47,963 nt of DNA from Nitrospira sp. (GTDB taxonomy: Bacteria > Nitrospirota > Nitrospiria > Nitrospirales > Nitrospiraceae): assembly GCA_005116885.1 (NCBI GenBank), contig SWDP01000047.1:72057-120019 (forward strand). The letters are read 5' to 3'. Shown piece after piece: positions 1,677 through 42,528 of the stretch. Both the position numbers and the translations under genes were made by a program. Each line of letters starts with the position of its first letter. Positions within the stretch are counted from its first letter, which is position 1. Under the pieces are notes generated by a model. It searched no databases. It was not told the DNA's origin and worked only from the letters and a program-made list of their open reading frames with translations.

Positions 1677-1802
1677 CAGGATGCTCAAACAGTCTGTCCA
1701 GCAAGGCCGCAGCGAGTGAAGGTCCGAGACGTACCCTCTGGGTACGTTGAGGACATGAACGATGCGAGAACGCTGCTGGCGGACTGTTTCAGCATCCTGC
1801 TA
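1677..1802 (-). repeat. Palindromic intergenic element, copy R1
   Basis: About 125 bp. The ends CAGGATGCT (1677-1685) and AGCATCCTG (1791-1799) are inverted repeats, and the interior carries further paired tracts around a GTACCCTCTGGGTAC centre. Read on the minus strand it begins with the TAG stop codon of the NxrC-like gene (1800-1802) and continues CAGGATGCTGAAA. Closely similar copies lie at about 5226-5350 and 40648-40772, with a partial one at 42385-42528. A 6-bp hairpin (GTGGGA/TCCCAC, 1662-1677) directly precedes the PDZ gene leader. Confidence 0.9.
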
Positions 1803-2627
1803 AAGCTTCGCAACTGGGTCGATGACGAGCTGAAACCATGGCGCGACAGATTTCTGCCCATTTCGTTCTTTATTCTCACCGTTCCAGACAGCAAACGACA
1901 CAGTTTGTACCCGACCTGGAATCAGCTTGGCTTCGTTCTCCTGCTCTTCACTCACCAAGGGCCTGCGCATGACAACATGCCACACTCCATCTTTCCATAC
2001 AGCCTTCCCCTGAACTCGCCCCTGCTTCTCTTTGGTCGTCAGGGTACTAAATCCCCCGCCGATGAGATCCTCGACAGACGAGACTCGTCGTGGGATAACT
2101 TCGAACGTTCGTACACCGTCGCGAGCCTTCTCGGAGGCCTTCGCGGCCCGGCGGTCGATATCGCTCTGCCAATCGGCCTTCCAATGCCAGATATTAATGT
2201 AGTGATCGAGCTGACCCATGCAGAAGAACGAAGGGGCATCGCCGAGCGGCAGTCCGATCGCTACGCCATCGCGAAAAGTTCCCGGCGTCAGACGGTCATT
2301 CTTGGTGTTGTCCTGCCATTCAAGCAAAAATGCGATCTCAGTCCCGTTGTGAAGCGACCGCACCGTCAAGGCTCGCGCGCTCGGCTCCGGCCAGACAGGT
2401 CTGGTAATCACTTGACCGCTCAATGGAAGCGTCATCGGCGAGACCTTGGCCCACGCCACATCATCCGGCTCAGCCGGCAGATCCCCCTCGACGAGACGCG
2501 TGCGAATAATCATCCCCTCGGAACTCACAAGGGGAACACCGACACTGACTAAGACCCCGGCTATCACCAGAATGAAGAAGAGCAGGAGCAGGACTGGGCG
2601 GGAAGATATCTTTGTCGTCGTACGCAC
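1800..2627 (-). CDS. NxrC-like heme-binding gamma subunit (ethylbenzene dehydrogenase-like)
   Basis: 275 aa from a GTG start, with an N-terminal membrane/signal segment at about residues 11-35. The rest matches the EbdC/NxrC-type beta-sandwich that holds one heme b in type II DMSO-reductase enzymes: LPLSGQVITRP near 67, LEWQDNTKND near 102, CMGQ at 136-139 and ERNGQKS near 254. By analogy with EbdC (Met/Lys heme ligation), Met137 and Lys259 are the candidate ligands. It is shorter than the second copy at 9095-10045 and lacks that copy's insert of about 50 residues. The likely job is to pass electrons from a periplasmic molybdoenzyme to a cytochrome c; the PDZ protein and pentaheme cytochrome downstream fit this. 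Its stop codon forms the end of repeat R1. Confidence 0.82.
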   Translation of the reverse strand: MRTTTKISSRPVLLLLFFILVIAGVLVSVGVPLVSSEGMIIRTRLVEGDLPAEPDDVAWAKVSPMTLPLSGQVITRPVWPEPSARALTVRSLHNGTEIAFLLEWQDNTKNDRLTPGTFRDGVAIGLPLGDAPSFFCMGQLDHYINIWHWKADWQSDIDRRAAKASEKARDGVRTFEVIPRRVSSVEDLIGGGFSTLTTKEKQGRVQGKAVWKDGVWHVVMRRPLVSEEQENEAKLIPGRVQTVSFAVWNGENKERNGQKSVAPWFQLVIDPVAKL

Positions 2628-2721
2628 TATGCAACGCCCTCAGGTGATCGGCGCGAGCCCATCGCGATGGGCGCAGACACTCACACAGCCCAAGCGGCTC
2701 AATCCGACGGCACGCGAATCG

Positions 2722-3975
2722 CTACCAGAGTTTCACACGGCGAATTTTGTTTTCGCCCCGCTCGCAGATGTAGAGATACCCCTGGGAGTCCAGTGAGAGT
2801 CCAACCGGAGAATTGACGACGGCCTCGATCCCCAGAAGTCCGTCTCCATGTTTCACGGTCCCTGCCGACTCTTTCGCGACGAAGCGTGCGGCGCCGCACC
2901 CACCCATATTCTTATCTTCGTACCCACTGTCTCCGTTGCCTGCCACCGTCGTGATAAGGCCGGTGGCAACCTCGACCTTACGTACGCGATGATTCATCGT
3001 GTCGGAGATGTAGAGATTGTCCTGCTGATCAGCCACCACCGCTTCCGGCGCATGGAGCATGGCTCTGATCGCCGGCTTGTCGTCACCATCGTAGCCGTAC
3101 CGGCACACCCCGGCTACTGTCGAGATGATACCACTGCGATGATCGATGCTGCGGACACGGTTGCTGCCCTTATCGACGAAAATAATATCGCCTTTCCCAT
3201 TCACCGTAAGCCCGACGGCATCATACAGTCGGGCTTCGAGTGCAGGCTTTCCGTCATCGAGATACATGGACATGTCCAGTCCATCCGAACAGACCGGCAT
3301 GAGCCAGCCGTGATCATCGCTGAAATCGATGCCGATGGCATCGCCGGAGAGCACCACCAGATTCCGCGCCACGAGCGGTTGCTCTCGAGCCTCGTCCTCT
3401 GCCGTCCAAGTCCCGGCGACAGTCGTGACCATGCCTGTCAGTGGATCGTAGCGACGGATTCGATGTGCTTGGGTATCGGCGATGTACATCACGTCGTTGG
3501 GATCGAACGCGATCGCGGCAGGCCAGGTGAGATTGGTCTCAAGGGCCGGGCCATCTCCGTTGAACCCATGTTGTCCGGTCCCGATGATCGTCGTGATGAT
3601 GCCAGTCGCATGGTCTATTTTTCTGATGCGGTTACTGCCGGAATCGCAGATGTAAAGATCATTGTGGGAATCGAACGCGACGTCGAGCGGCAAATAGAGT
3701 CCGGCCTCTCCACACAGGCCTTCGTCGCCGCTGTAGCATGTTTCACCGATGCCTGCAAAGTTATGGAGTAGGCCTTCCCGGAGATTGACCCGTCGGATAC
3801 GGTCGGACCCGGACTCGGCAAAGTAGAACCACACTTCGTCCTTATCGAGCGCCGCGTGATGAGGCAGTGGAATTCCGGACTTGACCGCCCGTTTTCCATC
3901 GCCAGTGCTCCTGGCTTTCCCGTTGCCTGCGAAAGTTTCGATATAGCCGACCGCAAGCTGAAGCTCGGTTTCCAT
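2722..3975 (-). CDS. NHL-repeat beta-propeller protein
   Basis: 417 aa. At least six repeats of the NHL type are visible, each with a G-(I/M/L)-(I/V/T)-T-x-(V/I)-A-G core such as GIITTIIGTG, GMVTTVAGTW, GIISTVAG and GLITTVAGNG, followed by blade strands reading LYI(S/C)D..N.RIR(K/R)V. No signal peptide or catalytic domain is evident, so it may be cytoplasmic or start at an unrecognised upstream codon. NHL propellers normally act as binding platforms. The chosen ATG has a weak AGG 5 nt upstream. The gene lies 25 nt upstream of tatA's neighbourhood boundary and shares its orientation. Confidence 0.8.
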   Translation of the reverse strand: METELQLAVGYIETFAGNGKARSTGDGKRAVKSGIPLPHHAALDKDEVWFYFAESGSDRIRRVNLREGLLHNFAGIGETCYSGDEGLCGEAGLYLPLDVAFDSHNDLYICDSGSNRIRKIDHATGIITTIIGTGQHGFNGDGPALETNLTWPAAIAFDPNDVMYIADTQAHRIRRYDPLTGMVTTVAGTWTAEDEAREQPLVARNLVVLSGDAIGIDFSDDHGWLMPVCSDGLDMSMYLDDGKPALEARLYDAVGLTVNGKGDIIFVDKGSNRVRSIDHRSGIISTVAGVCRYGYDGDDKPAIRAMLHAPEAVVADQQDNLYISDTMNHRVRKVEVATGLITTVAGNGDSGYEDKNMGGCGAARFVAKESAGTVKHGDGLLGIEAVVNSPVGLSLDSQGYLYICERGENKIRRVKLW

Positions 3976-4000
3976 ATACCTGTAACCCTAATCCCGGCGA

Positions 4001-4282
4001 TTAGCCGCGTGACGCTGAATGGACCGGCGCGGCCGACTGCTCCACGGAAGCCGGTGCTTGCAGCATGGGTTCAGGAACCGCTTGCTGCGGAGCGGCGGCC
4101 ATGTTCTGCTGGGCCGCTTGGGCTTCGGCTTCAATCGCGTCCGCCTCATGCACGGACTTCTTGAAGCCCTTGATCGCCTTACCGATCCCCTCCCCCAACT
4201 GCGGCAATTTTCCCGCACCGAAGATGACCAATACGATGAAAAGGATCAAGATCAACTCTGTAAAGCCAAGACTCCCAAACAT
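4001..4282 (-). CDS. tatA: Twin-arginine translocase subunit TatA
   Basis: 93 aa. The N-terminal membrane helix (about residues 5-22) is followed by the TatA/E hinge [10 protein letters not shown] and an amphipathic helix [12 protein letters not shown], then an Ala/Gln/Pro-rich tail. This layout is diagnostic for TatA, which forms the variable pore that exports folded proteins. A strong AAGGAGG lies 8 nt before the ATG. tatC is not in the window. Location among NxrC-like, TorD and Tat-ferredoxin genes suggests a role in export of a folded molybdoenzyme complex, which is inference from context. Confidence 0.95.
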
Positions 4283-4310
4283 GGTGTATTCCTCCTTATA
4301 AATGAGGCAA

Positions 4311-5120
4311 TCAGGATGTGCTGCTCTCTTTGGCCCGTTTGGAAAACCGTTCTTTCAATCGCTTCCGTGCCTGCTCAGCCTGTTCAAACATTTTCGCCTT
4401 ATCGTAGACGCTGATCAAGTTGTAGTAGGCCAGTGGTTCTTCGGGATTTTGCTCGACAGCTTCTTCCATGACCTTGATCGCGAGATCCGTTTTCTTGTGA
4501 TTCAACGCCAACTCCATCAGCTTGAAACTGCCTGCCAAATGCTTTGGGTCCAACTCAAGTGTACGGACATAGCACTGGATGGCCATGTCGATGGTATTGT
4601 AGTCCGAGACCTGAGGATTATCGAGTTCGACATAGACCCCCGCGAGATTGTACCAAGCCATAGGGTCGTCCGGCGTAATCTCCACAAGGCGCTCGTAATA
4701 CCCCTTGGCTTCCATGAATTTCTTCTTGTCGGCATAGACCCGCCCAAGGTTGAAGAGTGCCAGGACGTCATGGGGAAAGACGTCGAGCGCATGCTTGAAT
4801 TCGGTTTCCGCTTCATCCGTCATGGCCTTCGTGGCGTAGATCGTGCCCAAATTCGAATAGTACATCGCAAGCGACCGATTCATCTCTGCGCGGAGCCCTT
4901 CCGCCATTTCGATCGACTTCTTGACCTCGACGAGCGCGTCATCCATACGGCCTTTGCTGAAATACAGCTCGCCCAATCGGCAGCGGGCCTGGAAATCGTC
5001 TGGCTCGACCGCCAAGAGTTTTTCAATCTCGGTAATTTCCTCGTCGGGGCTCAGTGGCTGATCCCCTGGGTCGATGATGGTCTGGCTTTGTTCAGGAAGA
5101 GCAGCGGTTGGTTCGTTCAT
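4311..5120 (-). CDS. Soluble TPR-repeat protein
   Basis: 269 aa without signal peptide or membrane segment. Successive helix pairs carry TPR consensus positions, for example [53 protein letters not shown], and [20 protein letters not shown], giving about five to six repeats from residue 40 to 255. TPR arrays bind partner proteins. It sits 28 nt upstream of tatA on the same strand, so co-transcription and a role in complex assembly are plausible. Composite repeat R2 lies directly upstream. Confidence 0.85.
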
Positions 5121-5152
5121 ACAATTTCCTATAGTAAAAGTCTGTTCACGAG

Positions 5153-5350
5153 CTATAGAAAGCTCCGTTTATACACAAAACACCCTTGGAACCATTACAG
5201 AATGGTGTCGATGCTAACATCGCCTCAGGATGCTCAAAAAGTCCGTCCAGCAAGGCCGCAGCGAGCGAAGAGGCGAGGCGTACGCTTCGGTACGTTGAGC
5301 CTCTGAACGATGCGAGAACGCCGCTAGCGGGCGTTTTCAGCATCCTGCTA
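5153..5350 (-). repeat. Palindromic intergenic element, copy R2 with outer arm
   Basis: The inner palindrome runs 5226-5350, with CAGGATGCT and AGCATCCTG at its ends and the interior GAGGCGTACGCTTCGGTACG. On the minus strand it starts at the TAG stop of the upstream membrane-protein gene (5348-5350). An outer arm at about 5153-5194 (GCT..AGAAAGCTC...ATACACAAAA..CCC.TGGAACC) matches the arm that precedes copy R3 at 40572-40613, so the full unit is about 200 bp. Small open frames inside the element are repeat-derived and not called as genes. Confidence 0.88.
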
Positions 5351-6481
5351 GATATGTCCGCCCGCCAAAGAATCCGGCCTACTGACCATGGGAGCGTTCG
5401 TTGCCGGCGCCGACTCCGTCGCATCGCGCCGTTGCCGGTCCATGCTTAAGAGCATTGCGCCGAGCACCACCATGAGCGTCAGATTGGAATATAGGAGCGC
5501 ATATCCCGCAATAAACATCAATCCAAGACCATACCCTGCCAGACGCCCCATATTGAGCAATTTAATCACCGTGTACGACCAGCAGAACAGGCCTGTCAGA
5601 TAGAACGCAAACGGGAGAAAAAACGTGTAGCCCATGCCGAACTGAAAAATCCACCCAATGCCGTCCGCCGCCTTACGAATGTTACTGGCCATCCCGGCAT
5701 CATACCGATGGAGCAGATAGTCTAAGAACAACATCACCGTAAACACGGATATAGAGGTTGCCCAAAACCAGATGGCACGACGGCGCTGCCGTTGATTGCG
5801 GGTCCGAAACGAGACGCCCTGCCCATAGGCCCACATCACCAGGATACTGGACAAGACCAAGAGCCCCTCACCCCCACGATGCGCCTCATACACCAGGGGC
5901 GGAGCCGCAACGGTTCCGATAAAACTATAGATGGTGGACACGATCTGATAATACAACCAGCCCCCGACCCCGAGAAGATAGGTAATCCCCATAGCGCGAT
6001 GCGACCATTCGGTATGGGTCGAGAGATACTCCACCATCAAACAAATCAGCGCGACCAGCGCCACGATGTTATAAATCGCCGACCCCAAGAAGGCGGGAGG
6101 AACCAACAAAAATCCCACGGTAAGAAGCAAGAGGAGCGCGACACAGGGGATCACGATCCGATTCAATCCCGTAAACCCTCGACTGGCCACTCGATTGACG
6201 GCCGCCACACTCAGGGCAAGAAACAGCAGAATCGCCACGACGTTGAGCAACCACTGCCCAATCTGCGTCAGCGCCGTGAAGGTTGGGATAATCCATTCAT
6301 GCTCCTGCGCCAGCTTGCTGAGATGCACCCCCAACCGCGACACAAGCCGATACAGAATCAATTCCGAGAAAGAGACGATGAGGACAAGCTTGATTGTGTA
6401 TCGAAACAGCAAAGATTGATCGCTGAGCTTCCCCGTAATCCGTTCGATGGTGGGATTTGTCGCAGCAATCACTCTGTCCAC
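5348..6481 (-). CDS. Polytopic membrane protein of unknown function
   Basis: 377 aa from a GTG start. About nine hydrophobic helices are visible, spread from residue 27 to 360, separated by short charged loops (for example RTRNQRQRRRA near 228 and the HRYDAGMASNIRKAADG loop near 262). No conserved heme-ligand pattern, transport motif or enzyme motif is recognised. The C-terminal 25 residues are polar. It is on the same strand as the TPR and tatA genes, separated from them by repeat R2. The function is unknown. Confidence 0.75.
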   Translation of the reverse strand: MDRVIAATNPTIERITGKLSDQSLLFRYTIKLVLIVSFSELILYRLVSRLGVHLSKLAQEHEWIIPTFTALTQIGQWLLNVVAILLFLALSVAAVNRVASRGFTGLNRIVIPCVALLLLLTVGFLLVPPAFLGSAIYNIVALVALICLMVEYLSTHTEWSHRAMGITYLLGVGGWLYYQIVSTIYSFIGTVAAPPLVYEAHRGGEGLLVLSSILVMWAYGQGVSFRTRNQRQRRRAIWFWATSISVFTVMLFLDYLLHRYDAGMASNIRKAADGIGWIFQFGMGYTFFLPFAFYLTGLFCWSYTVIKLLNMGRLAGYGLGLMFIAGYALLYSNLTLMVVLGAMLLSMDRQRRDATESAPATNAPMVSRPDSLAGGHI

Positions 6482-6545
6482 CCTTGAGGAAAATGCGAAC
6501 TACACCGATGGAGAACAGTCAGGGACACCGTCGTACGAAACAGGC

Positions 6546-8330
6546 TCATGATGACCCTGCCGGCTGCGGCTCGCGCACTTGTTGCGCTTTGGCCCGTGCG
6601 ATATATAACAATCCATCGGCCATCGAGTAGTTGAACGGCAGCTCGCACACGACTTCGCTGACTTTTTCGTAGACATGTTGGTAGAGGCGCTCCGCTTCGT
6701 CCGGCGTCATACCTTCCGACACTTCATAGAAAAACCCCAGGCTCAGGTCCTCTGCCGACGGGCGCATAATCCGCCTGATGCCATAACTGCCGGGGTCGCT
6801 CATGATCGGCGCTTCTTTTTCCAAATCGAAGAGGCAGGGCTGACAAGAGAATCCATACGAATTATGCAGACGCTCGTTCTCCACGATAAAATTCATGGTT
6901 TCCCTGGCTTCTTCTTCCTTCTCGGTCGGGAACCCGACAATGATGTAGCAATGCACCGCGATCCCCAAATCGACGCAGTCGCCGGCAATTCGGCGCACCC
7001 ACTCCTGCTTAATCCCTTTCTTCATGAAATCCATGACGCGTTGATTGAAAGACTCCAATCCGAACACGATCTTCAGACAGCCGGCCTCCCGCATCGACGA
7101 CAGCAGTTCACGGGTCAGATGCTTCTCGAAACGCATCTCGCAGGTCCACTTGATATCCAACCTCCTGTCGATGATCTGCTGACACAACCGTTTCGCCGGA
7201 GAGAGAGCCACGCACTCGTCGGTGAAGAAGAAACGCTGCGCTCCGTACCGCTCCTTGAGCCATGTCAACTCTTCGACAGTTCGTCCCGGTTCTTTCTGTC
7301 TGAAGTTCTGGTGGTCCAGGGTCAGAGCGCAGAACGCACAATCTTTGTAATAGCAGCCTCGTGAAAACTGTACCGGCAACACCGGCTCCGGCGACAGATA
7401 AAGCTCGAGCGGAAAGCCGTCGTAGTTGGGGGCCGGCAGCTGATTGATGTTCTCAGAATAAAACGGCTGATTAATCGTAATCTTTCCGTTCTGGCGATAG
7501 ATCAGATTCGGAACTTTGCTGAAATCTTTTTTTCCGTCCAATTGATGAACGAGTTCGAGCAACGCGGTCTCGCCCTCGAACACGATGATATCGTCGGTCA
7601 GATCGAAGAGACTCGGACAGCGACGCACGTTATCGACCAATCTGGTGAAGATGCTGCCGCCGATGGTGAGATGGATGTTGGGAGCAGCTTCCTTGAGCAA
7701 ACGACAGAGTGTCAGACCGGGGATAATCTGCGATGTCGCCGTAATCGACACGCCGATCAAGTCCGGCTGGTCGCCGACAATCGACTGCACGAACTGCTCA
7801 CGAAAAAGACGAATATAGGGGTTCTGGGCCTCATCCCTGATGATTTTCATCAGATCTTTGGATGAATAGATGGAACAGCTGCCGAACTGATTGTCGACGA
7901 CCGTCAATCTGGTCGGGAAATAGAGCGTGGAGAGTACCTCCAGCCATTTGTCGATGAGAAAGAGACTTTCCTTGTAGGATTCGAGATCATAGAAGCCCTC
8001 TCCGCGAAGAGTTTCCTTGGCCGGCTCAATCCGATCGATGAGATACGGAAAGCGGTCCAGCGACTCCACCACTCTCGCCAAATGCTCGGCACTGCCAGGC
8101 CCGGTGTCCCCAATCCTTTCCTGCTCAAGTGTTCGCTGTTTATCGACTAACTCCTGATACAGGGCCACCCCATAGGAATGGGTCACCACCCTGTCTAGGA
8201 GTTCGATTCCGAGATCACGCTGGGATACATCAGTGACGCCGCCTTGAGCTAAAAACCCCGTCAATGAAGGGAGGCTCAGATAGGGCTGCGATGGATGCCA
8301 CGTTGGAGGAAAGAGCAGTGAAATCTTCAT
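6546..8330 (-). CDS. B12-binding-type radical SAM protein
   Basis: 594 aa. An N-terminal helical region precedes a cobalamin-binding-like Rossmann domain at about residues 190-260 (DLIGVSITATSQ, LTIGGS) that lacks the DxHxxG motif of base-off B12 enzymes. The radical SAM cluster motif is C326-x4-C331-x2-C334 in RGCYYKDCAFC, a longer first gap than the classical CX3CX2C. Later barrel strands are recognisable (FFFTDECVAL, CEMRFEKHL, KIVFGLESFNQRV, VHCYIIVGFPTE). The substrate is unknown. Related proteins modify peptides, lipids or cofactors. Nothing in the flanks names a target, although it stands between a membrane protein and NxrC. Confidence 0.85.
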   Translation of the reverse strand: MKISLLFPPTWHPSQPYLSLPSLTGFLAQGGVTDVSQRDLGIELLDRVVTHSYGVALYQELVDKQRTLEQERIGDTGPGSAEHLARVVESLDRFPYLIDRIEPAKETLRGEGFYDLESYKESLFLIDKWLEVLSTLYFPTRLTVVDNQFGSCSIYSSKDLMKIIRDEAQNPYIRLFREQFVQSIVGDQPDLIGVSITATSQIIPGLTLCRLLKEAAPNIHLTIGGSIFTRLVDNVRRCPSLFDLTDDIIVFEGETALLELVHQLDGKKDFSKVPNLIYRQNGKITINQPFYSENINQLPAPNYDGFPLELYLSPEPVLPVQFSRGCYYKDCAFCALTLDHQNFRQKEPGRTVEELTWLKERYGAQRFFFTDECVALSPAKRLCQQIIDRRLDIKWTCEMRFEKHLTRELLSSMREAGCLKIVFGLESFNQRVMDFMKKGIKQEWVRRIAGDCVDLGIAVHCYIIVGFPTEKEEEARETMNFIVENERLHNSYGFSCQPCLFDLEKEAPIMSDPGSYGIRRIMRPSAEDLSLGFFYEVSEGMTPDEAERLYQHVYEKVSEVVCELPFNYSMADGLLYIARAKAQQVREPQPAGSS

Positions 8331-8462
8331 GCCGATCCATCACCAACTGGAGAGAAAATAAGATGAATTCTCAATAAATTCCAACTATTTTTATACACTC
8401 CGGCCTCGGGCAAATGCAACCATCTGAAATTCTCCCTTGCTCCATCTCCCGCCTACCCCATC

Positions 8463-8491
8463 TTGTCTTTTTGATTGAACTTCCATATACA
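8463..8491 (+). promoter_or_regulatory. Candidate sigma-70 promoter for the exported protein gene
   Basis: TTGTCT (8463-8468) and TATACA (8486-8491) are separated by 17 nt in an AT-rich stretch upstream of the only plus-strand gene here. The spacing is optimal and the boxes are close to consensus, but no experimental support exists. The leader to the ATG at 8552 would be about 50 nt. Confidence 0.4.
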
Positions 8492-8551
8492 TACCATCGC
8501 ATCTCGTGTGAAAATTAGACATGCCGCCACGTTGTGAAAGGAGTGATGCCC

Positions 8552-9016
8552 ATGACACTGCTCGGAAAATCAAAGACCGTCGTGCTGACAGGGGTACTGG
8601 CTACAGTCGTAGCGGTCGCATTGCCTCTTCTATCGGCATTTGGCGAAGGCGGTGCGCAGCGGGACGTTGTGCGCAACGCGACGACCATGGGCATGCTCTA
8701 TCTAGTCGAGTTTATGGCGGCCCAAGCCGGGGCTCCTCCGAGCCGCGAGCAAACGATCGAGGAACTGGATAAAATTCTCATCCCATCCCTCGAGAGTCTA
8801 GGGAAAGAAAGCAGGGTCCTTGCTGGAGGCATCGCCGCCGGCACCTTTACCGGAGCCTTTGTGATTGAAGCCAAGTCGAAAGATGAAGTGACGGCGCTCA
8901 TTGGCGCGCTTCCCGCATCGAGCATGATGAAGTGGCAGGTCACACCGATCGAAACATTCGCACACCGAGCCGACATTGAGAAAAAGATAGTGCAGGGACT
9001 CCGCGCGCAGAAGTAG
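8552..9016 (+). CDS. Small exported protein of unknown function
   Basis: 154 aa from the ATG at 8552, chosen because AAAGGAG (8537-8543) lies 8 nt upstream; an in-frame GTG at 8534 would place the Shine-Dalgarno inside the gene. A signal peptide spans about residues 6-29 (VVLTGVLATVVAVALPLLSA). The mature part alternates helices and strands (RVLAGGIAAGTFTGAFVIEA, SKDEVTALIGALPASSMMKW), similar in layout to dimeric ferredoxin-like folds such as muconolactone isomerase/YCII families. No catalytic residue can be named. It is transcribed opposite to both neighbours and is closed by a shared terminator. Confidence 0.75.
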   Translation: MTLLGKSKTVVLTGVLATVVAVALPLLSAFGEGGAQRDVVRNATTMGMLYLVEFMAAQAGAPPSREQTIEELDKILIPSLESLGKESRVLAGGIAAGTFTGAFVIEAKSKDEVTALIGALPASSMMKWQVTPIETFAHRADIEKKIVQGLRAQK

Positions 9017-9030
9017 TTCGGCGCACAAAT

Positions 9031-9072
9031 GAGAAACCCCAGCCCGGCCTGACGCCGGACTGGGGTTTTCTC
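9031..9072. terminator. Bidirectional intrinsic terminator
   Basis: GAGAAACCCCAGCCCGGC and GCCGGACTGGGGTTTTCTC form a long stem around a short loop, with T-runs at both sides. It sits between the convergent stops of the exported protein (9016) and NxrC (9095), so it can stop transcription from both directions. Confidence 0.9.
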
Positions 9073-9094
9073 GTTACGCTATCGTTCTTCCCTA

Positions 9095-10045
9095 CTACAG
9101 TTTCAGAGTAAACCAGGTGGAAAGCGCCTTCATGCCATTGCGCTCGATGTTGTTCCCATCCCATACCGCAAAAGCGATAGGTACAGACATTCCCGCCTTG
9201 AATTGGGTATCGTTGGCATCGCCGGTTTCCAAGGTGCGTTTCACTACCACGCGCCAGGTTGGACCAGTATATCCACCGCCCTTGATGGAACCGGCGGGTT
9301 CCCAGACACCGTTTCCGATGACATCCTGATGCGCCTGCGTCGTCAGGGTGCTGAAGCCATTGGCGTTGAGATCTTCAACTGAACTCACACGCAACGTCGG
9401 ATCGGACATGATGTTGCCAGACCAGATACCAGGATTGAAGGGCCCGAGGCTTCGGCCGATCCGGTCAGGATAGGTCACGCCGCCTGCCGGCTCTTCGAAG
9501 TAATAGTCCCAGAAAATTCCTGGATACTGGTCATCGACGTCCCAGATACCTGCGCTATCTTTGCCGATATCTTTCTGCCACTCGGCGTTCCACCGCCAGA
9601 TGTTGGTCGTGCCGCCGGACTGACCCATGCACTGGAAGGGTGGCGCGCCAGCCGTGTTGACCGGGAACATGACCGCCGCCTGATCCCGGAAATCCTGGGG
9701 ACCGATGGTTGTATCGTTCTTGGTCTGATCCTGCCATTCGATACGAAGACCCATCTCTTTACCGTTCGTCATGGCTTTCACGAACACCGACTTCACCGAA
9801 ATATTCGGGTGCATCGGCGTGGTGATCAGCTGACCGCTCAGTGGTACGATCACCCCGGGCACGCCCTCCCATACCGGGTTGGCGCCATCCATCGGGATCG
9901 CACCCTTGACCATCTTCGCCGGAATGGTCACCGGCTGACTGACAGCCAACGGAACCTGCCCGATCGTCAGCATGACGCCCACGATCAACGCAGAGAGAAG
10001 AATGCCGAGCACCACACGCTTACTGTGTGTCTGCACTACACTCAT
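9095..10045 (-). CDS. nxrC: Nitrite oxidoreductase gamma subunit candidate (EbdC-like)
   Basis: 316 aa with AGGAGG 9 nt before the ATG. A Sec-type signal segment covers about residues 10-36 with likely cleavage after AVS. The mature domain is the ethylbenzene-dehydrogenase gamma fold: VPLSGQLITTP near 67, IEWQDQTKND near 102, CMGQ at 139-142 and ERNGMKALSTWF near the end. Met140 and Lys306 are the candidate axial ligands of a heme b, as in EbdC. An insert of about 50 residues (170-220, rich in Tyr, Trp and Pro) separates it from the shorter copy at 1800-2627. The neighbourhood (41-aa membrane protein, TorD chaperone, Tat ferredoxin) fits a gamma subunit of the periplasmic Nxr complex. NxrA and NxrB are absent here, as is usual for unlinked gamma genes, so the assignment stays an inference from fold and context. 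Confidence 0.82.
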   Translation of the reverse strand: MSVVQTHSKRVVLGILLSALIVGVMLTIGQVPLAVSQPVTIPAKMVKGAIPMDGANPVWEGVPGVIVPLSGQLITTPMHPNISVKSVFVKAMTNGKEMGLRIEWQDQTKNDTTIGPQDFRDQAAVMFPVNTAGAPPFQCMGQSGGTTNIWRWNAEWQKDIGKDSAGIWDVDDQYPGIFWDYYFEEPAGGVTYPDRIGRSLGPFNPGIWSGNIMSDPTLRVSSVEDLNANGFSTLTTQAHQDVIGNGVWEPAGSIKGGGYTGPTWRVVVKRTLETGDANDTQFKAGMSVPIAFAVWDGNNIERNGMKALSTWFTLKL

Positions 10046-35033: not shown

Positions 35034-35115
35034 AGATGTAACCTCCTGAAGTTTGGGTGAGAGGGAGCCGCGTATTCAGCAACTCCACTCCCCCAACCAA
35101 GATCCTTAAAGATGA

Positions 35116-37029
35116 TTAGTGGCCCCCAGCCGGCTGCGGTGCGCCGCCAGGAACCCCTGCCTTCGCCTCAACAGGCGCCTTCTTCATCCCGAGGCTTCCC
35201 AGCCAGAAGACGAATAGGATACTCACCCAGAAGAACAATACATTGAATGAAATCATGTTCGCGGCAAAACCTACCGTATGCGTATAGGCCCAAGGTGAGT
35301 TATCACGCATAATCTCATTTACGTGCCAGAATAATCGGACGGAAGAACGGATGTATCCCATCAATCCCATCATCCAGGTAAAAGCCGTTGCAAGCATGAT
35401 TAACGCATATTGCGATCGAACAGAGATCTTTCCCCATTCAATCGCCCCCATCTGTTTGGCGCCCTTCATCATGGCTGCGTTCAACGGAAACATGAAGAAG
35501 AGACAAGACAGTGTTGTGGCGACTTGGGGCACTGAGAGACCCACTCGCACGTTTGCCGGGATGTAATACCCGTAGATGGCCAGCCAGATAATGTTCACAT
35601 AGGCACAGGCAAAGAACACGCCCATGAAAATGTTACCGAACTTCGACCAGGATACCGTCGAAACCTTATTCCCTCGCATGTACCACACGAAGCTCAGAAT
35701 GGTGGTAGTGATGATCACATTAATTCCACCGTTCTTGGCCGACATAACCCCGTAGTTTCCCAGCACCGGATGCTGTTGACCACCCATCGCTTTGAGTTCC
35801 GCTGGAGTCATGACGATCGTGTGGGGGGTAATAAACACGAGGTAGCCGCAACAGAGAATGAATACGAGATACTTAATGTAGCGTTGATATTTCTCAGCCC
35901 CGCGCATCCGACCCAGCGCCTGCCAGAGATAATAATTTGTACTCAAGAAAAGAATGCCGATCATGGTGGCCTGAATAATGAAAAGCCACGCCAGGAGGCC
36001 TCCCATGAGCGTAATCCCCATCTGTTGGCGATAGGCGTACACCTCGCGCATCAACCAGTAGCCGGCAAACGGCAAGGGAATTAGGAACGCCACGCCGAGC
36101 GCCATCGCGATATACCCCATCCAGTCATAGTGCGCACGATCCTCGTCTGTCTTGGAGGCCAAGAACTTGTATGCTGCGTAGGCCGCCACGACACCGCCGC
36201 CAAATGCCATATTCCCCAAAATACGATGCACGTTGAGGGGATTCCAAAGGGCGGTATGAATGACGTGCCAGATGTTTCCCAGGTAGCGACCCTGCTCATC
36301 GACGCCGGCAGGCGACATCATAAAGCCGATCCATGAGTTCGCCAGGAACATGAGCAAGGTACCGATGACGTTCAAGATTACGGACATGCTCAAATGAATC
36401 CACTTGAGGAACCCGTCTCTCATCTTGTCCCAACCGTAATAGTAGATGTAGAGCGTTCCACTCTCCGCCACAAACATCAACGCATAGATATGCATGACTG
36501 GGCGGAAGATACCGGACAAATAGCCGAAAAATGCGGGGTACAGCGTCAAGAAAGTGAAGATGAGAATACCACCCAGAATTGCGGTCAACGAATAGGCCGT
36601 CAGACTGATTTTAATGAAGTCATAGGCGAGCTGATCGTACCGCTTCGCCATCGCTTTATCCTTCGTCACCACCCCCATAAATTCGATCACCATGCAGAAG
36701 ATCGGCACTGCGAGCACGAAACTCCCGTAGTAGAGATGCTGTTGGTTGGCGAACCAGAGCAATACACGGCTTTCGAAGTTGTACCGCGGATAGTCCCGAG
36801 GGCCATCGACAGTCTTCGGGGCAGGGGCGCCGACGACGATACCCTCCGTCTTATAATAGACGTCTCGCCCCTTCTCAACTTTCGCCTCACCGTCCTTCTT
36901 CACCGCATCAGGGGCATCCGCGCCCATAGCCAGTGACGGAAGCGATACAGCGATGGGGAGCAGGAGAAGGCCAATCATCGCGCAAAGCGCCATGATTGAA
37001 AAAATCTTCTTCCCGGCTACACGTCCCAT
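35116..37029 (-). CDS. Cytochrome bd-like oxidase, subunit I-like
   Basis: 637 aa from the ATG at 37029 (AGGAGG 6 nt upstream). A signal/TM segment (8-35) and a periplasmic stretch precede about 14 helices. His98 in ANQQHLYYGSFVLAVP matches the helix I position of the CydA heme-ligand His. FLANSWIGFMMSPAGV and LWNPLNVHRILGNM resemble CydA's NGWMQNPVG and NPVAQVKFVHTV regions, with the second His displaced. The quinol-binding Q-loop and a CydB gene are missing, while three c-type cytochrome genes follow. This matches the bd-like oxidase proposed as terminal oxidase in Nitrospira, probably fed by cytochrome c. Two miniproteins precede it. Confidence 0.88.
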   Translation of the reverse strand: MGRVAGKKIFSIMALCAMIGLLLLPIAVSLPSLAMGADAPDAVKKDGEAKVEKGRDVYYKTEGIVVGAPAPKTVDGPRDYPRYNFESRVLLWFANQQHLYYGSFVLAVPIFCMVIEFMGVVTKDKAMAKRYDQLAYDFIKISLTAYSLTAILGGILIFTFLTLYPAFFGYLSGIFRPVMHIYALMFVAESGTLYIYYYGWDKMRDGFLKWIHLSMSVILNVIGTLLMFLANSWIGFMMSPAGVDEQGRYLGNIWHVIHTALWNPLNVHRILGNMAFGGGVVAAYAAYKFLASKTDEDRAHYDWMGYIAMALGVAFLIPLPFAGYWLMREVYAYRQQMGITLMGGLLAWLFIIQATMIGILFLSTNYYLWQALGRMRGAEKYQRYIKYLVFILCCGYLVFITPHTIVMTPAELKAMGGQQHPVLGNYGVMSAKNGGINVIITTTILSFVWYMRGNKVSTVSWSKFGNIFMGVFFACAYVNIIWLAIYGYYIPANVRVGLSVPQVATTLSCLFFMFPLNAAMMKGAKQMGAIEWGKISVRSQYALIMLATAFTWMMGLMGYIRSSVRLFWHVNEIMRDNSPWAYTHTVGFAANMISFNVLFFWVSILFVFWLGSLGMKKAPVEAKAGVPGGAPQPAGGH

Positions 37030-37112
37030 GAAATACCTCCTTGATGCATTCTGAAAAAGACTCATAACAATTCCCTGCAAGCTCGACTCAGGACGGAATG
37101 AACCCCTACGGC

Positions 37113-37235
37113 CTACTTCCGGAATAAATACCAGAAGTCCAGTCCCTGCGAGTCCATCAAGAAGTGGTCAACTGCCAGAAAATAGGTAATGCAAACTGCC
37201 AATGACACCACCACGTATACGACTGTCATACCCAT
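37113..37235 (-). CDS. 40-aa membrane miniprotein upstream of bd-like oxidase
   Basis: 40 residues, with GGGAGGGAG 5 nt before the ATG at 37235. One hydrophobic helix (residues 3-22, TVVYVVVSLAVCITYFLAV) is followed by a polar tail with Asp23-His24 and GLDFWYLFRK. It is 83 nt upstream of the oxidase start. Size and position recall the CydX/CydS-type small subunits of bd oxidases, but no sequence family is recognised. A structural subunit of the bd-like oxidase is the leading guess. Confidence 0.72.
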   Translation of the reverse strand: MGMTVVYVVVSLAVCITYFLAVDHFLMDSQGLDFWYLFRK

Positions 37236-37295
37236 TGCACTCCCTCCCTAAACCTTGCCGACATCCAAAAAATCATAGCGCCGTAGCGGCCCCGC

Positions 37296-37418
37296 TTAAC
37301 AGGGGCACTGAATTCCAGCAAACCAATAAAAAAACCACAAGCCTACCGCGCAAGTGATGTAAAAAATCATCTTCCCAACTTTGACCTTTATCTCGCTATC
37401 TGGTACTGCCGTGGCCAT
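37296..37418 (-). CDS. Second 40-aa membrane miniprotein of the oxidase operon
   Basis: 40 residues, ATG at 37418 preceded by GAGAGAAGGAG with 6-7 nt spacing. A charged N-terminus (PDSEIKVKVGK) leads into one aromatic-rich helix (IFYITCAVGLWFFYWFAGIQ) and ends in CPC. It is the most upstream gene of the run that includes the other miniprotein, the bd-like oxidase and three cytochromes. Its terminal CPC might be a metal or thiol site. The family is not recognised. Confidence 0.7.
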   Translation of the reverse strand: MATAVPDSEIKVKVGKMIFYITCAVGLWFFYWFAGIQCPC

Positions 37419-37475
37419 TGCGTCTCCTTCTCTCCTGATGCAACCACTCCATCCAAACTCAGCTCAGCGAATTTC

Positions 37476-37504
37476 TTGACACACAGATACCCGTATGTTA
37501 TTCA
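37476..37504 (+). promoter_or_regulatory. Candidate promoter for 34-aa plus-strand gene
   Basis: An exact TTGACA (37476-37481) is followed after 17 nt by TATTCA (37499-37504). The start of the downstream miniprotein is about 40 nt away. The -10 box is weak, so confidence is moderate. Confidence 0.4.
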
Positions 37505-37542
37505 AAATTCCTTGCGAAACACGAAAAATCAGAGGAAACTCG

Positions 37543-37647
37543 ATGCAAAAAAAATCAAAAGTGTTCGACATTATAGTTTTGGTCGGAATGGTTGTCAATA
37601 TACTTTTGGCCGTGTTTCTCATTCTCTATTACTTTGATTTCTTATAA
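37543..37647 (+). CDS. 34-aa membrane miniprotein, plus strand
   Basis: 34 residues, ATG at 37543 after AGAGGAAA with 5-nt spacing, stop TAA at 37645. After a basic start (MQKKSK) nearly all residues form one helix (VFDIIVLVGMVVNILLAVFLILYYFDFL). It runs opposite to all nearby genes, between the oxidase operon and the SUMF1-like gene, and has its own TTGACA. AT content is far higher than in the neighbours. Whether it works with the oxidase is unknown. Confidence 0.6.
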   Translation: MQKKSKVFDIIVLVGMVVNILLAVFLILYYFDFL

Positions 37648-37667
37648 GTTTCGCATGGTCTTCCCGT

Positions 37668-38558
37668 TCATTTTTTCTCTGATTTCACACCAGAAACTGC
37701 ACAACGAAACCCGATCGTCTCATCGCGAAAATCCTGAACCAGCTTGCTTCTGCTGGTAATGCGAATATCAGCTCCCGTGGTCGCATAGCCTCCCCCACGA
37801 AGCACTCGAAATACGCCGTGATCAGGGCCCTGAGGGTTCTGATCCGGAGCCTCTTCGTAGTAGCGCTCCGCGTACCAATCATCGACCCACTCCATGACAT
37901 TTCCTGCTCCATCCATCACACCGTAGGGGCTCCTATCTGTCTGAACCGTCCCGACAATTGCGGAAACTTCATGGCCATCCTCCACCCTCGCCCAATTGGC
38001 TCCGTTGGGCTGCTCAACACTACCCCAAGGCCACAGACGTCCATCCGGCCCTCGCATGGCTTTTTCCCACTCCGCCTCGGTTGGAAGCCGCCTCCCTTTC
38101 CAATGGCAATAGGCCTCCGCATCCTCCCATGATACATAGACCACGGGCTGGTTGAGACCCAGCATCTTGCTCATGTTCTTGGCGTAACGAGCAGGAGGAC
38201 CGGACTTGCGATGCCCGGTCGCATCCACAAATTGCTGGTACTGAAAATTAGTCGTTTCATAGCGATCAATGGCAAATGCGCCCAGCACCAGCGTACGTTG
38301 CGGCCGCTCATCGAACCCACCTTCATTAGTGCCACGGATGAAGGGTCCTGCCGGAATCGAAATCATTTCTTCCTGAACCGGCTCCTCACGAGCAGCCAGA
38401 GAAGGGTCGGGCGACCCCGACGGCGTTGAATTTGTCGAATCGGCAGGAGACGCTTCAAACGGGGTCAACGTCGTACCGCGAAGGATTCCCATGATAGGAA
38501 TCGCAGCAAATGCAAGGATGGCAAGAAGAAACAATACCTTGAATTTGGTTTCGAGCAT
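37668..38558 (-). CDS. SUMF1/FGE-fold protein, second of a tandem pair
   Basis: 296 aa from the ATG at 38558; a longer in-frame start would overlap the upstream gene by 130 nt and is rejected. One N-terminal helix (VLFLLAILAFAAIPIMGIL) anchors it. The FGE-sulfatase domain has ISIPAGPFIRGTNEGGFDERP, VYVSWEDAEAYCHWKGRRLPTEAEWEKAMRG, GNVMEWVDDWYAERYY and VLRGGGYATTGADIRITSRSK ... IGFRCA. The Cys-x4-Cys of true formylglycine-generating enzymes is absent after the RGG(S/G) segment. It starts 5 nt after the stop of the similar gene upstream, so the pair arose by duplication and is co-translated. Confidence 0.88.
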   Translation of the reverse strand: MLETKFKVLFLLAILAFAAIPIMGILRGTTLTPFEASPADSTNSTPSGSPDPSLAAREEPVQEEMISIPAGPFIRGTNEGGFDERPQRTLVLGAFAIDRYETTNFQYQQFVDATGHRKSGPPARYAKNMSKMLGLNQPVVYVSWEDAEAYCHWKGRRLPTEAEWEKAMRGPDGRLWPWGSVEQPNGANWARVEDGHEVSAIVGTVQTDRSPYGVMDGAGNVMEWVDDWYAERYYEEAPDQNPQGPDHGVFRVLRGGGYATTGADIRITSRSKLVQDFRDETIGFRCAVSGVKSEKK

Positions 38559-38563
38559 GTTGG

Positions 38564-39490
38564 TTATGACGCCGCGGGACTGTCGCTGGCCTCCATATCG
38601 CTCGCGCAGCGAAACCCGATCGTAATATCCGTCCGCCAGGCTTTCGCGGCAAATCGCTTGGAGAGTCGCGCAGTATGCTCGGTCTCTCGCCACGACCCTC
38701 CTCGCACAACTTTCAAGTCCGCACGGTCCGGCCCTTTCGGATCACGATAGGGTGCTTTCTGGTAGTAATGCTCATCGTATGAGTCTGCTACCCATTCCGC
38801 AACATTCCCGGTCATGTCATAGATTCCATAGGTACTTCTACCAGCTTCGACTGAGCCGGGAGGCGCAAGATACCGATATCCATCTTCACTCCCATCCAGA
38901 TTGGCATTGGCATGGCCAGTTTTGACGGTGTCGCCCCACGCGTATTTCCGCTTTCCTTCACCACGGCCGGCCTTTTCCCATTCCGCCTCCGTAGGAAGAC
39001 GTTTTCCTGCCCATTTACAATAGGCCGCCGCCTCGTCCCAGGTCATGCTCATCGCCGCAAACTCAGGCTTCAGCAGCTTGGATTGATCGTCTTCAAACAC
39101 CTCGATCTTGGGCAACGAACGCTTAGTCATTTTGGCGAACCGGGCATACTCCTCTTGCGACACTTCTTTTCTATCGATATAGAATGTGCTTAAAAACACT
39201 TGCCGTTCCGGCACCTCATCTGGATCACCATCTTTGCTCCCCATAATGAACGGGCCATCGGGAACCTGCACCATCTCTCGCCCTTCATCTCCTATTTTCG
39301 TCTTATACATAGAATAGTCCAGAGAGGGCGCGCTGGTTGGCGCAGGCCGAGCCTCGGTCTTAATCGACGAAGCCAAGGCTTTCATCTGCTTCGCCTTGTA
39401 GGATTCATAGACCAGCAAGCTGATCATCAGGGCAAACGCCCCAAAAACGAATACGATCGAGCCGACAAGCACTCCCTTACTTTCCATCAT
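38564..39490 (-). CDS. SUMF1/FGE-fold protein, first of a tandem pair
   Basis: 308 aa with GGAGGAG 8 nt before the ATG. One membrane helix (VLVGSIVFVFGAFALMISLLVY) is followed by a linker and an FGE-sulfatase domain: MVQVPDGPFIMGSKDGDPDEVPERQV, MTWDEAAAYCKWAGKRLPTEAEWEKAGRG, DMTGNVAEWVADSYDEHYY, VVRGGSWRETEHTARLSKR and IGFRCASD. The catalytic cysteine pair of FGE is missing, so sulfatase activation is unlikely; a binding or structural role near the oxidase is possible. The periplasmic domain faces the same side as the cytochromes. Confidence 0.88.
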   Translation of the reverse strand: MMESKGVLVGSIVFVFGAFALMISLLVYESYKAKQMKALASSIKTEARPAPTSAPSLDYSMYKTKIGDEGREMVQVPDGPFIMGSKDGDPDEVPERQVFLSTFYIDRKEVSQEEYARFAKMTKRSLPKIEVFEDDQSKLLKPEFAAMSMTWDEAAAYCKWAGKRLPTEAEWEKAGRGEGKRKYAWGDTVKTGHANANLDGSEDGYRYLAPPGSVEAGRSTYGIYDMTGNVAEWVADSYDEHYYQKAPYRDPKGPDRADLKVVRGGSWRETEHTARLSKRFAAKAWRTDITIGFRCASDMEASDSPAAS

Positions 39491-39493
39491 GTC

Positions 39494-39865
39494 TCATACT
39501 CCTCCGGGTGCAGCTTTTTTCTTTGCCGCTCTCATATCCAGCAACATCGAAATCTGCACACCGAGAAATCCGCCCATCGCAGCACCAGCCCCCGCCCCCA
39601 CAGATATTCTCTCTGGTCCGGCAATAAGCCAAGCAAGCGACCCACCTAGCAGAGTGCCCACTAAAATACTCGCTAAGAAACGCCGCCCTCCCATAAACCC
39701 AATCACACCGCCGAGCACCAACCCTGCCCCACTCGCCAGCGGCATGATGCCGCCCCCCATAATAATCCCGATCAGCGTCCCGACAGTTCCCATCACGGCT
39801 ACACCGAACAGGATATCGATCACCTTCTTTATGGGCGCAACGTGTTCCGTGCCGGAATTGGCCAT
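39494..39865 (-). CDS. Small glycine-rich membrane protein
   Basis: 123 aa. Three to four short hydrophobic segments rich in Gly ([72 protein letters not shown]) and a basic Lys-rich C-terminus. Such Gly-zipper patterns occur in small membrane channel-like or lipoprotein-associated proteins, but no family is recognised. It stops 4 nt before the first SUMF1-like gene and starts 20 nt after the DUF3047 gene, so the four genes form one unit. Confidence 0.75.
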
Positions 39866-39885
39866 GCTGACTACGGTCCATTTCT

Positions 39886-40542
39886 CTAATGTCCGGCGCT
39901 CGCCACGATCGAGCCAAAATCGATTTCAACACCGGATGCGGCAATGATCGAGATGCCCCAGGCTTTGGCAGCCGGTTCGTGCTTGTGAATCCTCTTGAAA
40001 TCCTCATAGACGTTCACGCGTTCCTCGAACCACTCCCCAACAGCCTTCGTACCGCTTTGCACGACGATCTCTGAGCCGCTGAAGATCCCTCCCTCGGTAA
40101 GCGTGCCATCGGGCTTAGTCGCACTCCAGACATACTTCGTAAACACCGGAATAAACATCAGATCGGTATCCAGCGAAGCGTACATCGCCGCAATCGGCTC
40201 AGTGTCCGTCGTGGCTTTTTGCAGACGCCAACGCCAGGTGAGGACGGGAAAGGCCTTGGGATCCCAATCGATCTTCTTTTTCTTGATTCGCTGCCCCGCG
40301 TCCTTTACGGCCAGAAAGCTCACACCATCCTCCGTCTGAACCTTATACGCATCCCGCCCCTTCGACTGGCTTCGTTGATTCTCATGCTCCCAATTCAATG
40401 GAAATCCTTCTGCATCTTTCGTCTGAAAATCCTCCAGAACCAGGGACTGGCTTTGGGCTGTGACCGCGCCCTGCATCACCATGCTTCCACACACGAGCAA
40501 TACGACTGTTAGGTATCTCAGGATCATCATCCCTCGCCTCAT
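39886..40542 (-). CDS. Exported DUF3047 protein
   Basis: 218 aa with a signal peptide at about residues 6-29, cut after VTA. The mature sequence [64 protein letters not shown] and [25 protein letters not shown] shows the DUF3047 jelly-roll-like pattern. Function of the family is unknown. Its start is 23 nt from the outer arm of repeat R3. An internal GAGGG before a second Met pair leaves the exact start uncertain by five residues. Confidence 0.82.
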
Positions 40543-40564
40543 ACTTCCTACCCCTTTCGGACTT

Positions 40565-40772
40565 TAGCAGGCTGCGGAAAAACTCGGTCCATACATAAAA
40601 TGCCCGTGGAACCTTCCTTACCTACGACGCTGATTTCAACATAGCCACAGGATGCTCAAAATGGTTGTCCGGCAAGGCCGCAGCGAGCAAAGAGGCGAGG
40701 CGTAGGCTTCGATACGTTGAGCCTCTGAGCGATGCGAGAACGATGCTGGCGGACTTTTTCAGTATCCTGTTA
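40565..40772 (-). repeat. Palindromic intergenic element, copy R3 with outer arm
   Basis: The inner palindrome runs 40648-40772. On the minus strand it begins with the TAA stop of the second bd-like oxidase (40770-40772) as TAACAGGATACTGAAAAAG. An outer end at 40565-40592 (TAGCAGGCTGCGGAAAAAC) is an inverted, diverged copy of that same terminal sequence, making a 208-bp unit with terminal inverted repeats. The arm at 40572-40613 matches the one in R2. Confidence 0.88.
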
Positions 40773-42521
40773 GGCCTCTTGCGACGACGACGGCGGCGCC
40801 AAGACCCTTGTGTTTCCCTCGACTAACTCTTCTCCAATCGCTGGCGACTGGTTACGCTGAGACATCCAGAACAGGACGAGCACCGCTCCCCAGAACACCA
40901 TCATATTGAGCGTCACCATTTTCGCCGCAAACGCAAAATCCGGTGTGAAGGCCCAAGGAGAGACATCCGCCATCAACTCGCTGACATGCCATGCCAGCCT
41001 CCCGGATGAACGGATATAACCCATGAGACCCATCACCCATGTGAAGGCTGCGGCCAGTCCAAACAACCCCGCCATGCCCCTGAGGGAAATCTTTCCCCAC
41101 TGAACCGGCCCGTGAAGAATCGCCCCCTTGAGCATCATGCGATTGATGATGATTCCAACCACAAGGACCGTCAACGTAGTTGCGGCCTGCGGCGACGACA
41201 GCCCAACACGGAGCTTCGCCGGCAGATAATACCCATACACTGAAAGCCAGATAATGTTGAGCGCCCCCAAGAAGAACAACGCACCGATGAGGATGTTCCC
41301 TTTCGTGACCCAGGGCACAACCATCGTTCGATTGGCGCGACGGTAATACAGAAAACTCATGGTGGTCACAAGAATCATAATGTTGACCGCACCGTTCTTT
41401 GCCGACATCACTCCATAGTTGCCGACTACGGGATGCGACGCTCCGCCCATCGCCTTCACTTCACTACCCGACATGAAAACGGTGTGAGGCGTCAGCCACA
41501 CGAACAGCGCCACCATAAACACCGAGAGCAGCACTTGATAATAGGGCTGATACCGTTCCCCACCACGAAGGCGCGCCATGCTCTGCCAGAGGTAAAAGTT
41601 GACTCCCAGAAAAAGGACGCCGATTAAGATGGCCTGCACGACGAAGAGCCATGTGAGTAATCCGCCCATCATCGTCACACCCATACTCTGGCTGAATGCA
41701 TAGACCGATCGCATCAACCAGTAGCCGGCAAAGGGCATCGGTAACAATGCGATCACCGTGACAAATAAGAAAACATGCCCGACCCAGTCGAAATAGGCGC
41801 TCTCTTTTTCTGACTTGCTCGTAAAGAATCGATAACACGCGTAGGCCATCACCACCGCGCCGCCGGACATAATGTTTGCCAAGAAACGATGGACATTCAA
41901 TGGATTCCACAGCGCCGAATGGAGCAGGTGCCATCCGTTCCCCAAAAACTGCCCCTTCGCATCGACGCCAGCCGGCGCCATCATGAAGGCCGACCAAGCG
42001 TTTGCTAGGAGCAGCAGTGCCGTCCCAAATAGGTTACTCAACAGGCCGATTGATGCGTGGACCCATTTCGAGGCCGGCTCAACCAACCTGTTCCAGCTAT
42101 AGTAATAGGTGATGAGCAGCAGCGATTCCCCGAGAAACACGAATGCATAGACCGGCATAAAGGTTTTGAACGTCCCGCCCATGTACTTCATGAAGCTGGG
42201 ATAGAAATAGAGAAAGACCCCCAGCATGCAGCTCCCGACCACGGCCGTCACCGATAAGGCGAGGAGAGCAACTTTTGCCAAATCCCGCGCAAGGCCGTCA
42301 TAACGAAGGGCAAGTTCGGGGTTTTTGCTCCTGAGTCCAAGAAATTCCAGCAACACACAAAAAATCGGTAACGCGAGAACACCGGAGGCGTACCCTCTGG
42401 GGCGCACGGTGCGACGAATAAGGAGCACCACGTCTGTGCGCGCCGCCGAGTGGTGAGGCGGCCGGGTCCCCGTTGAGGGTCTAAACGATGCGAGAACGAA
42501 ACTGGCGGACTTTTTCAGCAT
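40770..42521 (-). CDS. Second bd-like oxidase, N-terminus replaced by repeat sequence
   Basis: 583 aa. From about residue 47 (SGVLALPIFCVLLEFLGL) it aligns along its whole length with the bd-like oxidase at 35116-37029 (e.g. LLANAWSAFMMAPAGVDAKGQFLGNGWHLLHSALWNPLNVHRFL). The first 46 residues (MLKKSASFVLASFRPST...) are encoded by repeat R4 and are unrelated. As a result the signal segment, periplasmic stretch and the ANQQHLYYG-type His segment of helix I are missing. The ATG lies 4 nt past the upstream stop, inside the repeat, so restart translation is possible. The product may be non-functional, or this may be a reduced paralogue; the rest of the frame is intact with no other defect seen. 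Confidence 0.75.
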   Translation of the reverse strand: MLKKSASFVLASFRPSTGTRPPHHSAARTDVVLLIRRTVRPRGYASGVLALPIFCVLLEFLGLRSKNPELALRYDGLARDLAKVALLALSVTAVVGSCMLGVFLYFYPSFMKYMGGTFKTFMPVYAFVFLGESLLLITYYYSWNRLVEPASKWVHASIGLLSNLFGTALLLLANAWSAFMMAPAGVDAKGQFLGNGWHLLHSALWNPLNVHRFLANIMSGGAVVMAYACYRFFTSKSEKESAYFDWVGHVFLFVTVIALLPMPFAGYWLMRSVYAFSQSMGVTMMGGLLTWLFVVQAILIGVLFLGVNFYLWQSMARLRGGERYQPYYQVLLSVFMVALFVWLTPHTVFMSGSEVKAMGGASHPVVGNYGVMSAKNGAVNIMILVTTMSFLYYRRANRTMVVPWVTKGNILIGALFFLGALNIIWLSVYGYYLPAKLRVGLSSPQAATTLTVLVVGIIINRMMLKGAILHGPVQWGKISLRGMAGLFGLAAAFTWVMGLMGYIRSSGRLAWHVSELMADVSPWAFTPDFAFAAKMVTLNMMVFWGAVLVLFWMSQRNQSPAIGEELVEGNTRVLAPPSSSQEA

Positions 42522-42528
42522 TCTGCTA
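42385..42528 (-). repeat. Partial palindromic element R4 fused to oxidase gene
   Basis: The stop-anchored half is canonical: TAGCAGAATGCTGAAAAAGTCC then GCATCGTTTAGA on the minus strand, starting at the TAG of the upstream gene (42526-42528). The loop is enlarged by about 65 bp of GC-rich sequence. The other half is cut at GGCGTAC (42387-42393), where the oxidase coding sequence resumes. Confidence 0.8.

Follow-up and report, generated by a model that had tools for sequence, protein, structure and literature searches.

A palindromic repeat lies directly behind a stop codon at four places in the stretch of DNA analysed here, and the question that this locus raises is how such a repeat comes to sit at the ends of genes. 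The window (47,963 nucleotides) corresponds to positions 72057-120019 of contig C7 in a Nitrospira genome (G000), a 3.19-Mb draft in 49 contigs. We find that it belongs to a non-autonomous transposable element (MITE) of ~200 bp, the palindrome being the left part of this element. As the first-pass annotation had described, all four copies lie on the minus strand, with the left end of each adjoining the stop triplet of a same-strand ORF:

1677..1799, minus: short MITE copy, palindrome, right arm not recognised
1800..1803, minus: YTAR target TTAG at the left end; includes the TAG stop of ORF 1800-2627
5149..5347, minus: MITE copy; left end 5347, palindrome 5226-5347, right end decayed (~5149)
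5348..5351, minus: YTAR target CTAG at the left end; includes the TAG stop of ORF 5348-6481
40564..40567, minus: distal target-site duplication, CTAA on the minus strand, flanking the 202-bp copy
40568..40769, minus: complete 202-bp MITE copy (locus L253), both ends found; absent from 25 of 27 orthologous loci
40770..40773, minus: gene-side target-site duplication, CTAA on the minus strand; includes the TAA stop of ORF 40770-42521
42382..42525, minus: partial MITE copy, left end plus ~144 bp, fused to the next ORF
42526..42529, minus: YTAR target TTAG at the left end; includes the TAG stop of ORF 42526-43581

The complete copy begins with CAGGATACTGAAAAAGTCC (minus strand) at 40769 and ends with CAGGCTGCGGAAAAACTC (plus strand) at 40568; the filled site thus reads CTAA-element-CTAA, showing that the element exceeds the palindrome and carries a 4-bp duplication. 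More generally, the ends are CAGGATGCTGAAAAAGTCC and, inverted, CAGGCTGCGGAAAAACT, with a 4-bp YTAR target duplication around intact copies. Among 499 inverted end pairs in the collected loci (60-3500 bp apart), 42 had identical 4-bp flanks, of which 36 were YTAR (CTAG 24, CTAA 6, TTAG 5, TTAA 1), and 32 of these 42 spanned 176-379 bp, within the size of a MITE (<500 bp); the element also lacks a transposase gene, as a MITE should. Copies vary in structure, some being the palindrome alone and others having a decayed right arm. A clean YTAR is missing at 48 of 115 left ends in G000, and at 5149-5347, where the right end was placed by eye against the copy at 40568-40769, the matching duplication is absent on the far side. 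Rfam gave no match above the gathering score in the window. The ~125-bp palindrome of the first-pass annotation is therefore a real repeat but only part of the full element, and the stop that was taken for its first bases does adjoin the left end but sits in the target duplication, outside the element.

Beside the first copy we noticed an inverted repeat, AAAGGCCCTT/AAGGGCCTTT, at 1580-1609, which is terminator-like by eye, and a shorter one, GTGGGA/TCCCAC, at 1662-1677. At 42519-42528, at the partial copy, an ATG lies inside the left end of the element (CAGAATGCTGAAAAAG, MLKKS...), 4 bases past the upstream stop, and ORF 40770-42521 has its first listed start at this ATG (42521). The distance from the stop to matching downstream sequence is 261-285 bp in 15 relatives without a left end there vs. 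144-157 bp in G000; given this shorter spacing, insertion of the partial copy may have replaced the 5' part of the gene.

The repeat is not a product of chance: a 23-mer of the left end, allowing up to 3 mismatches, was found at 158 places in G000 (77 + 81) vs. none for a reversed-pattern control, and a search with the 125-bp copy returned at least 42 places in G000 among the matches listed, with 40 of 233 candidates scored. Left ends were present in 168 of 175 genomes of the family (Nitrospiraceae), and a scan of named genomes yielded at least 112 stretches, 74 of the 80 titled ones being Nitrospira, Nitrospiraceae, Nitrospirae or Nitrospirota; the element has been seen mainly in Nitrospira-type bacteria. 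The same terminus with different interiors was seen at six loci (L121, L144, L152, L175, L190, L147) in records titled Deltaproteobacteria, Sedimenticola and Poseidonocella, and the end type is hence wider than Nitrospira. Two IMG/VR viral contigs carry short elements of the same end type (L313:670-824, CAGGCTGCTGAAAAA; L314:3725-3849, CAGGCTGCGGAAAAA) flanked by TTAA or CTAA, that of L313 inside an open frame. Plasmids searched with element DNA (one window copy, one L147 copy) and phages searched with the window copy yielded no match.

Anchoring at stops is likewise not confined to the window. From the G000 stretches, 115 left ends with at most 3 mismatches were classified with a simple home-made codon-usage gene caller, after dropping 15 of 130 left ends with 4-5 mismatches: 47 coincided exactly with the stop of a gene on the same strand, 10 fell within genes and 58 elsewhere between genes, and, counting either end, 26 of 46 copies with both ends found were at a stop. 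Left ends too near a locus end were likewise omitted from the counts. Among the 67 left ends with YTAR, 36 were at stops and 25 elsewhere between genes; compared with unoccupied sites (36:25 vs. 79:656), this represents an odds ratio (OR) of 12 (p=1.6e-17, a value that assumes independent loci, whereas several share one genome and some insertions are possibly shared by descent). In a named-genome replicate of 106 loci (112 scanned stretches less 6 loci from other phyla; 32 of the 106 without listed titles, several from one MAG), 57 of 116 left ends were at stops (OR 9.0), the scan pattern itself having demanded TAR. In 30 loci from other genera of the family, stops accounted for 13 of the 30 left ends (OR 5.5, p=7e-4, under the same assumption). 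Stratification by tetranucleotide preserved the excess (OR 12.6 and 8.2), and an extended target motif was rejected as the cause of the bias, with only T at -1 and the C and G around TA being favoured. Genome-wide, then, the anchoring seen in the window is a strong excess but not a rule, as 68 of the 115 left ends lie away from stops. As to these other sites, of the 30 left ends that precede a divergent gene, 17 lie 4-28 nt from its called start (G000, L031-L110), and C is over-represented at positions -5 and -8 of non-stop sites, which may be the Shine-Dalgarno sequence of the divergent gene.

We consider it very likely that an IS5-type, YTAR-targeting transposase inserts the MITE at TAR stops and that the duplication preserves the stop. 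As we envisage it, an ISAzs10-like transposase of this type would act in trans on the MITE, inserting it at the palindromic tetranucleotide YTAR (most commonly CTAG) and duplicating that tetranucleotide. An in-frame YTAR contains a TAA or TAG stop and so can occur nowhere in a gene but at its end; after insertion there, one of the duplicated YTARs stays joined to the gene, so that stop and protein are unchanged. A serious, if somewhat doubtful, alternative is that selection alone makes the bias, with random insertion over YTAR sites and survival of only the harmless insertions, those at stops being the least harmful. In keeping with this, hardly any genic YTAR site is occupied (6 elements vs. 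903 unoccupied sites in G000), and the duplication renders insertions at stop codons harmless by construction. However, two comparisons do not sit well with selection alone: 1) at a distance of 1-200 nt past a stop, YTAR sites are disfavoured 14.6-fold relative to the stops themselves (35:5 occupied vs. 82:171 unoccupied); 2) the excess persists between convergent gene pairs (OR 18, 8:2 vs. 18:82; OR 6, 13:9 vs. 37:154), where harm should be about equal. If harmlessness were all that selection acted on, the 3' region should be used to a similar extent, and it is not; the difference would be explained by targeting or by retention for a function. As for why stops outdo the remaining intergenic YTAR sites by a factor of about ten, we think that loss of harmful insertions probably combines with some preference for, or retention at, gene ends. 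Active guidance of the transposition machinery to stop codons, by which YTAR at the end of translation would be preferred as a target and more than tolerated, and target choice would be coupled to translation termination (for example, through the state in which ribosome and RNA polymerase leave the DNA on terminating), strikes us as unlikely. The first-pass suggestion that the element targets stop codons on insertion thus gains a strong statistical bias and relatives with an empty site and a stop in its favour, while active targeting stays putative.

Those relatives also bear on the suggestion that the element supplies the stop. At the 40.6-kb site, where it is present in two of the comparable loci of the genus (L255, L256), each of the 25 empty loci likewise shows a stop at this codon (11 TAA, 14 TGA), three of them have CTAA as in G000 but only once, and one (L265) has ~30 additional bases of other sequence. 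At this site, therefore, the stop does not come from the element, since relatives without it have one and the duplication preserves it; if the flanking YTAR is the old target at other insertions as it is at this one, the stop would have pre-existed there too wherever the left end lies exactly at an in-frame TAR. Some stops appear to have been used more than once. One carries the MITE in G000 (L073) and an autonomous insertion sequence (IS) in G136 (L318); at another (L083:4900, plus), a left-end-like sequence was read at most 2 bases past the stop in 13 of 27 relatives, and on the minus strand (L083:4900) all four relatives compared were without the element and had a stop (CTGA or CTAA) at that codon. 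Judged from these sequences, such stops look like recurrent targets.

The common orientation of the window copies, by contrast with their position, turned out to be mostly a matter of ascertainment, copies having been recognised by their left ends. Left-end-anchored counts of left vs. right ends at stops were 45:6 and 54:8 in two sets, vs. 4:8 and 13:18 when right ends served as anchors and both ends were present. Scoring both ends gave 15:11 (of 46 copies) and 29:22 (of 89), together 44:33, with 3 further copies having stops at both sides; short copies are included in these counts, since the inner end of the palindrome was allowed to pass for a right end. A strong orientation bias, for which our first hand count (47:8, used in the 35:5 vs. 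82:171 comparison) had spoken, was withdrawn after the right-end-anchored counts, and with it goes the uniform orientation of the first-pass annotation. There may still be a moderate left-end bias, as the 30 copies with identical duplications had the left end at the stop in 15 cases vs. the right end in 4.

This leaning of the identical-duplication copies would also suit an element kept at stops as a hairpin, serving the upstream gene as a 3' mRNA structure or terminator. The left part does form a long hairpin: for the 123 nt of stop plus palindrome in one copy, the fold was equalled by just 4 of 200 shuffled sequences (z -2.64), and REPs within 15 nt of stops in E. coli are described, in the accessible part of one report, as acting on translation (PMC12306157). 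On the other hand, the whole 202-nt copy has no such advantage over its shuffles (z 0.24), the element can lie with either end towards the stop, and the same stop in relatives is often followed by nothing or by other sequence. The 3' mRNA structure proposed in the first-pass annotation accordingly retains the fold of its left part but not that of the full copy, and retention as a hairpin seems to us improbable as an account of the excess.

With its ~125-bp inverted doublet, a tetranucleotide at the foot and many copies, the repeat also resembles REP elements, REPINs among them, that owe their movement to a RAYT (Y1) transposase, a reading to which we give hardly any credence. A PF01797 search of G000 and 32 genus genomes revealed no repeat-bracketed Y1 gene: 13 of the 32 genus genomes had no Y1 match, yet each harboured 10-159 left ends, and no left end was found near either of the two Y1 genes of G000. 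Among 28 Y1 loci of relatives, 5 held one element each and none held two, as flanking of a RAYT gene would have it. The 4-bp duplication also speaks against this reading, as IS200/IS605-type transposition is not known to make one.

We return to the IS5-type transposase that we favour, for which a partner was sought in the 32 genus genomes with an IS1182 model and DDE_Tnp_1, 60 loci being scanned for element ends. Eight IS-like elements with similar ends were taken up, seven measuring 1318-1378 bp and the eighth 823 bp (e.g. L324 750-2068 and L331 966-2325, with CTAG on both sides). Of the six with readable flanks, L320, L324 and L331 have CTAG/CTAG, the 4-bp YTAR duplication that an IS5 partner should have, while L318 and L325 (TTAG/CTAG) and L323 (CTAG/TTAG) have two YTAR forms, one base apart; the flanks of L321 and L332 are cut by the locus end. 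The MITE right end CAGGCTGCGGAAAAACT shares 17 identical bases with one end of the L324 IS, from which the MITE left end differs at 2 of the first 15 bases; the end CAGGCTGCGGAAAAAC of L323 and L324 resembles the MITE right end, and L318, L320, L321 and L331 have ends of the CAGGCTGTTGACAAAC type. DUF772 and DDE_Tnp_1 exceeded Pfam cut-offs in all four transposases analysed. Against the IS5 model NF033581 (cut-off 140 bits), three of the four reach the cut-off (L324 280.5, L332 236.1, L318 140.4) and L331 falls just under it (135.9), and all four match the IS1182 model below its cut-off of 270. L331 and L318, however, score higher with the latter (234.7 and 232.8 bits), which slightly lowers our confidence in the favoured explanation. 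The L324 transposase is 63% identical over 97% to that of ISAzs10, the sole IS-named match among the 15 plasmid matches listed for this protein. ISAzs10 reads TTAG-CAGGCCGCGGAAAAAG...CTTTTTCCGCGTCCTG-TTAG, in agreement with the element in ends and duplication. On this protein and end similarity, the autonomous elements of congeners appear to encode IS5/IS1182-like transposases, with ISAzs10 as the nearest named relative among the matches listed, and we infer that the MITE is mobilised in trans by this IS5-type (ISAzs10-like) group. Only 2 of the 8 autonomous elements are clearly at a stop. In G000 itself (a draft, 84% complete), none of four loci examined for their transposase matches has a transposase with recognisable ends on both sides. 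End pairs 1.4-1.8 kb apart (L208, L128, L156, L029) showed no transposase among reading frames inspected by eye. IS701 was rejected as a partner, its 4-bp duplication fitting but its ends, as tabulated in the accessible part of the source (---YACT), not (PMC2266710). For IS5, the accessible table gives CTAG 15, CTAA 3 and TTAG 3 of 24 targets (PMC5493358).

This explanation would account for a conspicuous repeat in 168 of 175 genomes of the family, and it points to a general trick: a YTAR-duplicating transposon regenerates TAA and TAG stops, making gene ends safe harbours by virtue of the genetic code. Whether transposition can be coupled to translation termination becomes testable through the excess of stops over nearby sites where insertion seems harmless. 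The case also carries a warning that repeats abutting stops need not be regulatory.

The element is a new MITE family with an unusual target bias toward stops. In the literature searched, with most subscription journals outside it, we found no mention of stop codons as a preferred target of IS5-type MITEs, nor does the accessible text on IS5 state such a preference (PMC5493358). Among known systems, MITEPsy1 of Pseudomonas syringae is likewise IS5-related, with 100 nt, ends of the type ...CTGAAAAAGCC and a duplication of CTAG or YTAA, but it has six copies in the described strain and no stop-codon bias is stated in the part of the report accessible to us (PMC3189936). The Chunjie MITE of Geobacter uraniireducens (178-235 bp, many intergenic copies) is similar in size and copy number as far as a review describes it (PMC10969869). 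REP/REPIN elements are also high-copy palindromes, some near stops according to the accessible part of one report (PMC12306157), but the MITE has a duplication and no link to a RAYT gene. The closest likeness in ends and duplication is with the ISAzs10-like group of the IS5 family, which shares with the MITE the CAGG..GCGGAAAAA end type and the YTAR duplication, the MITE differing in its length of ~200 bp and in being without the transposase gene.
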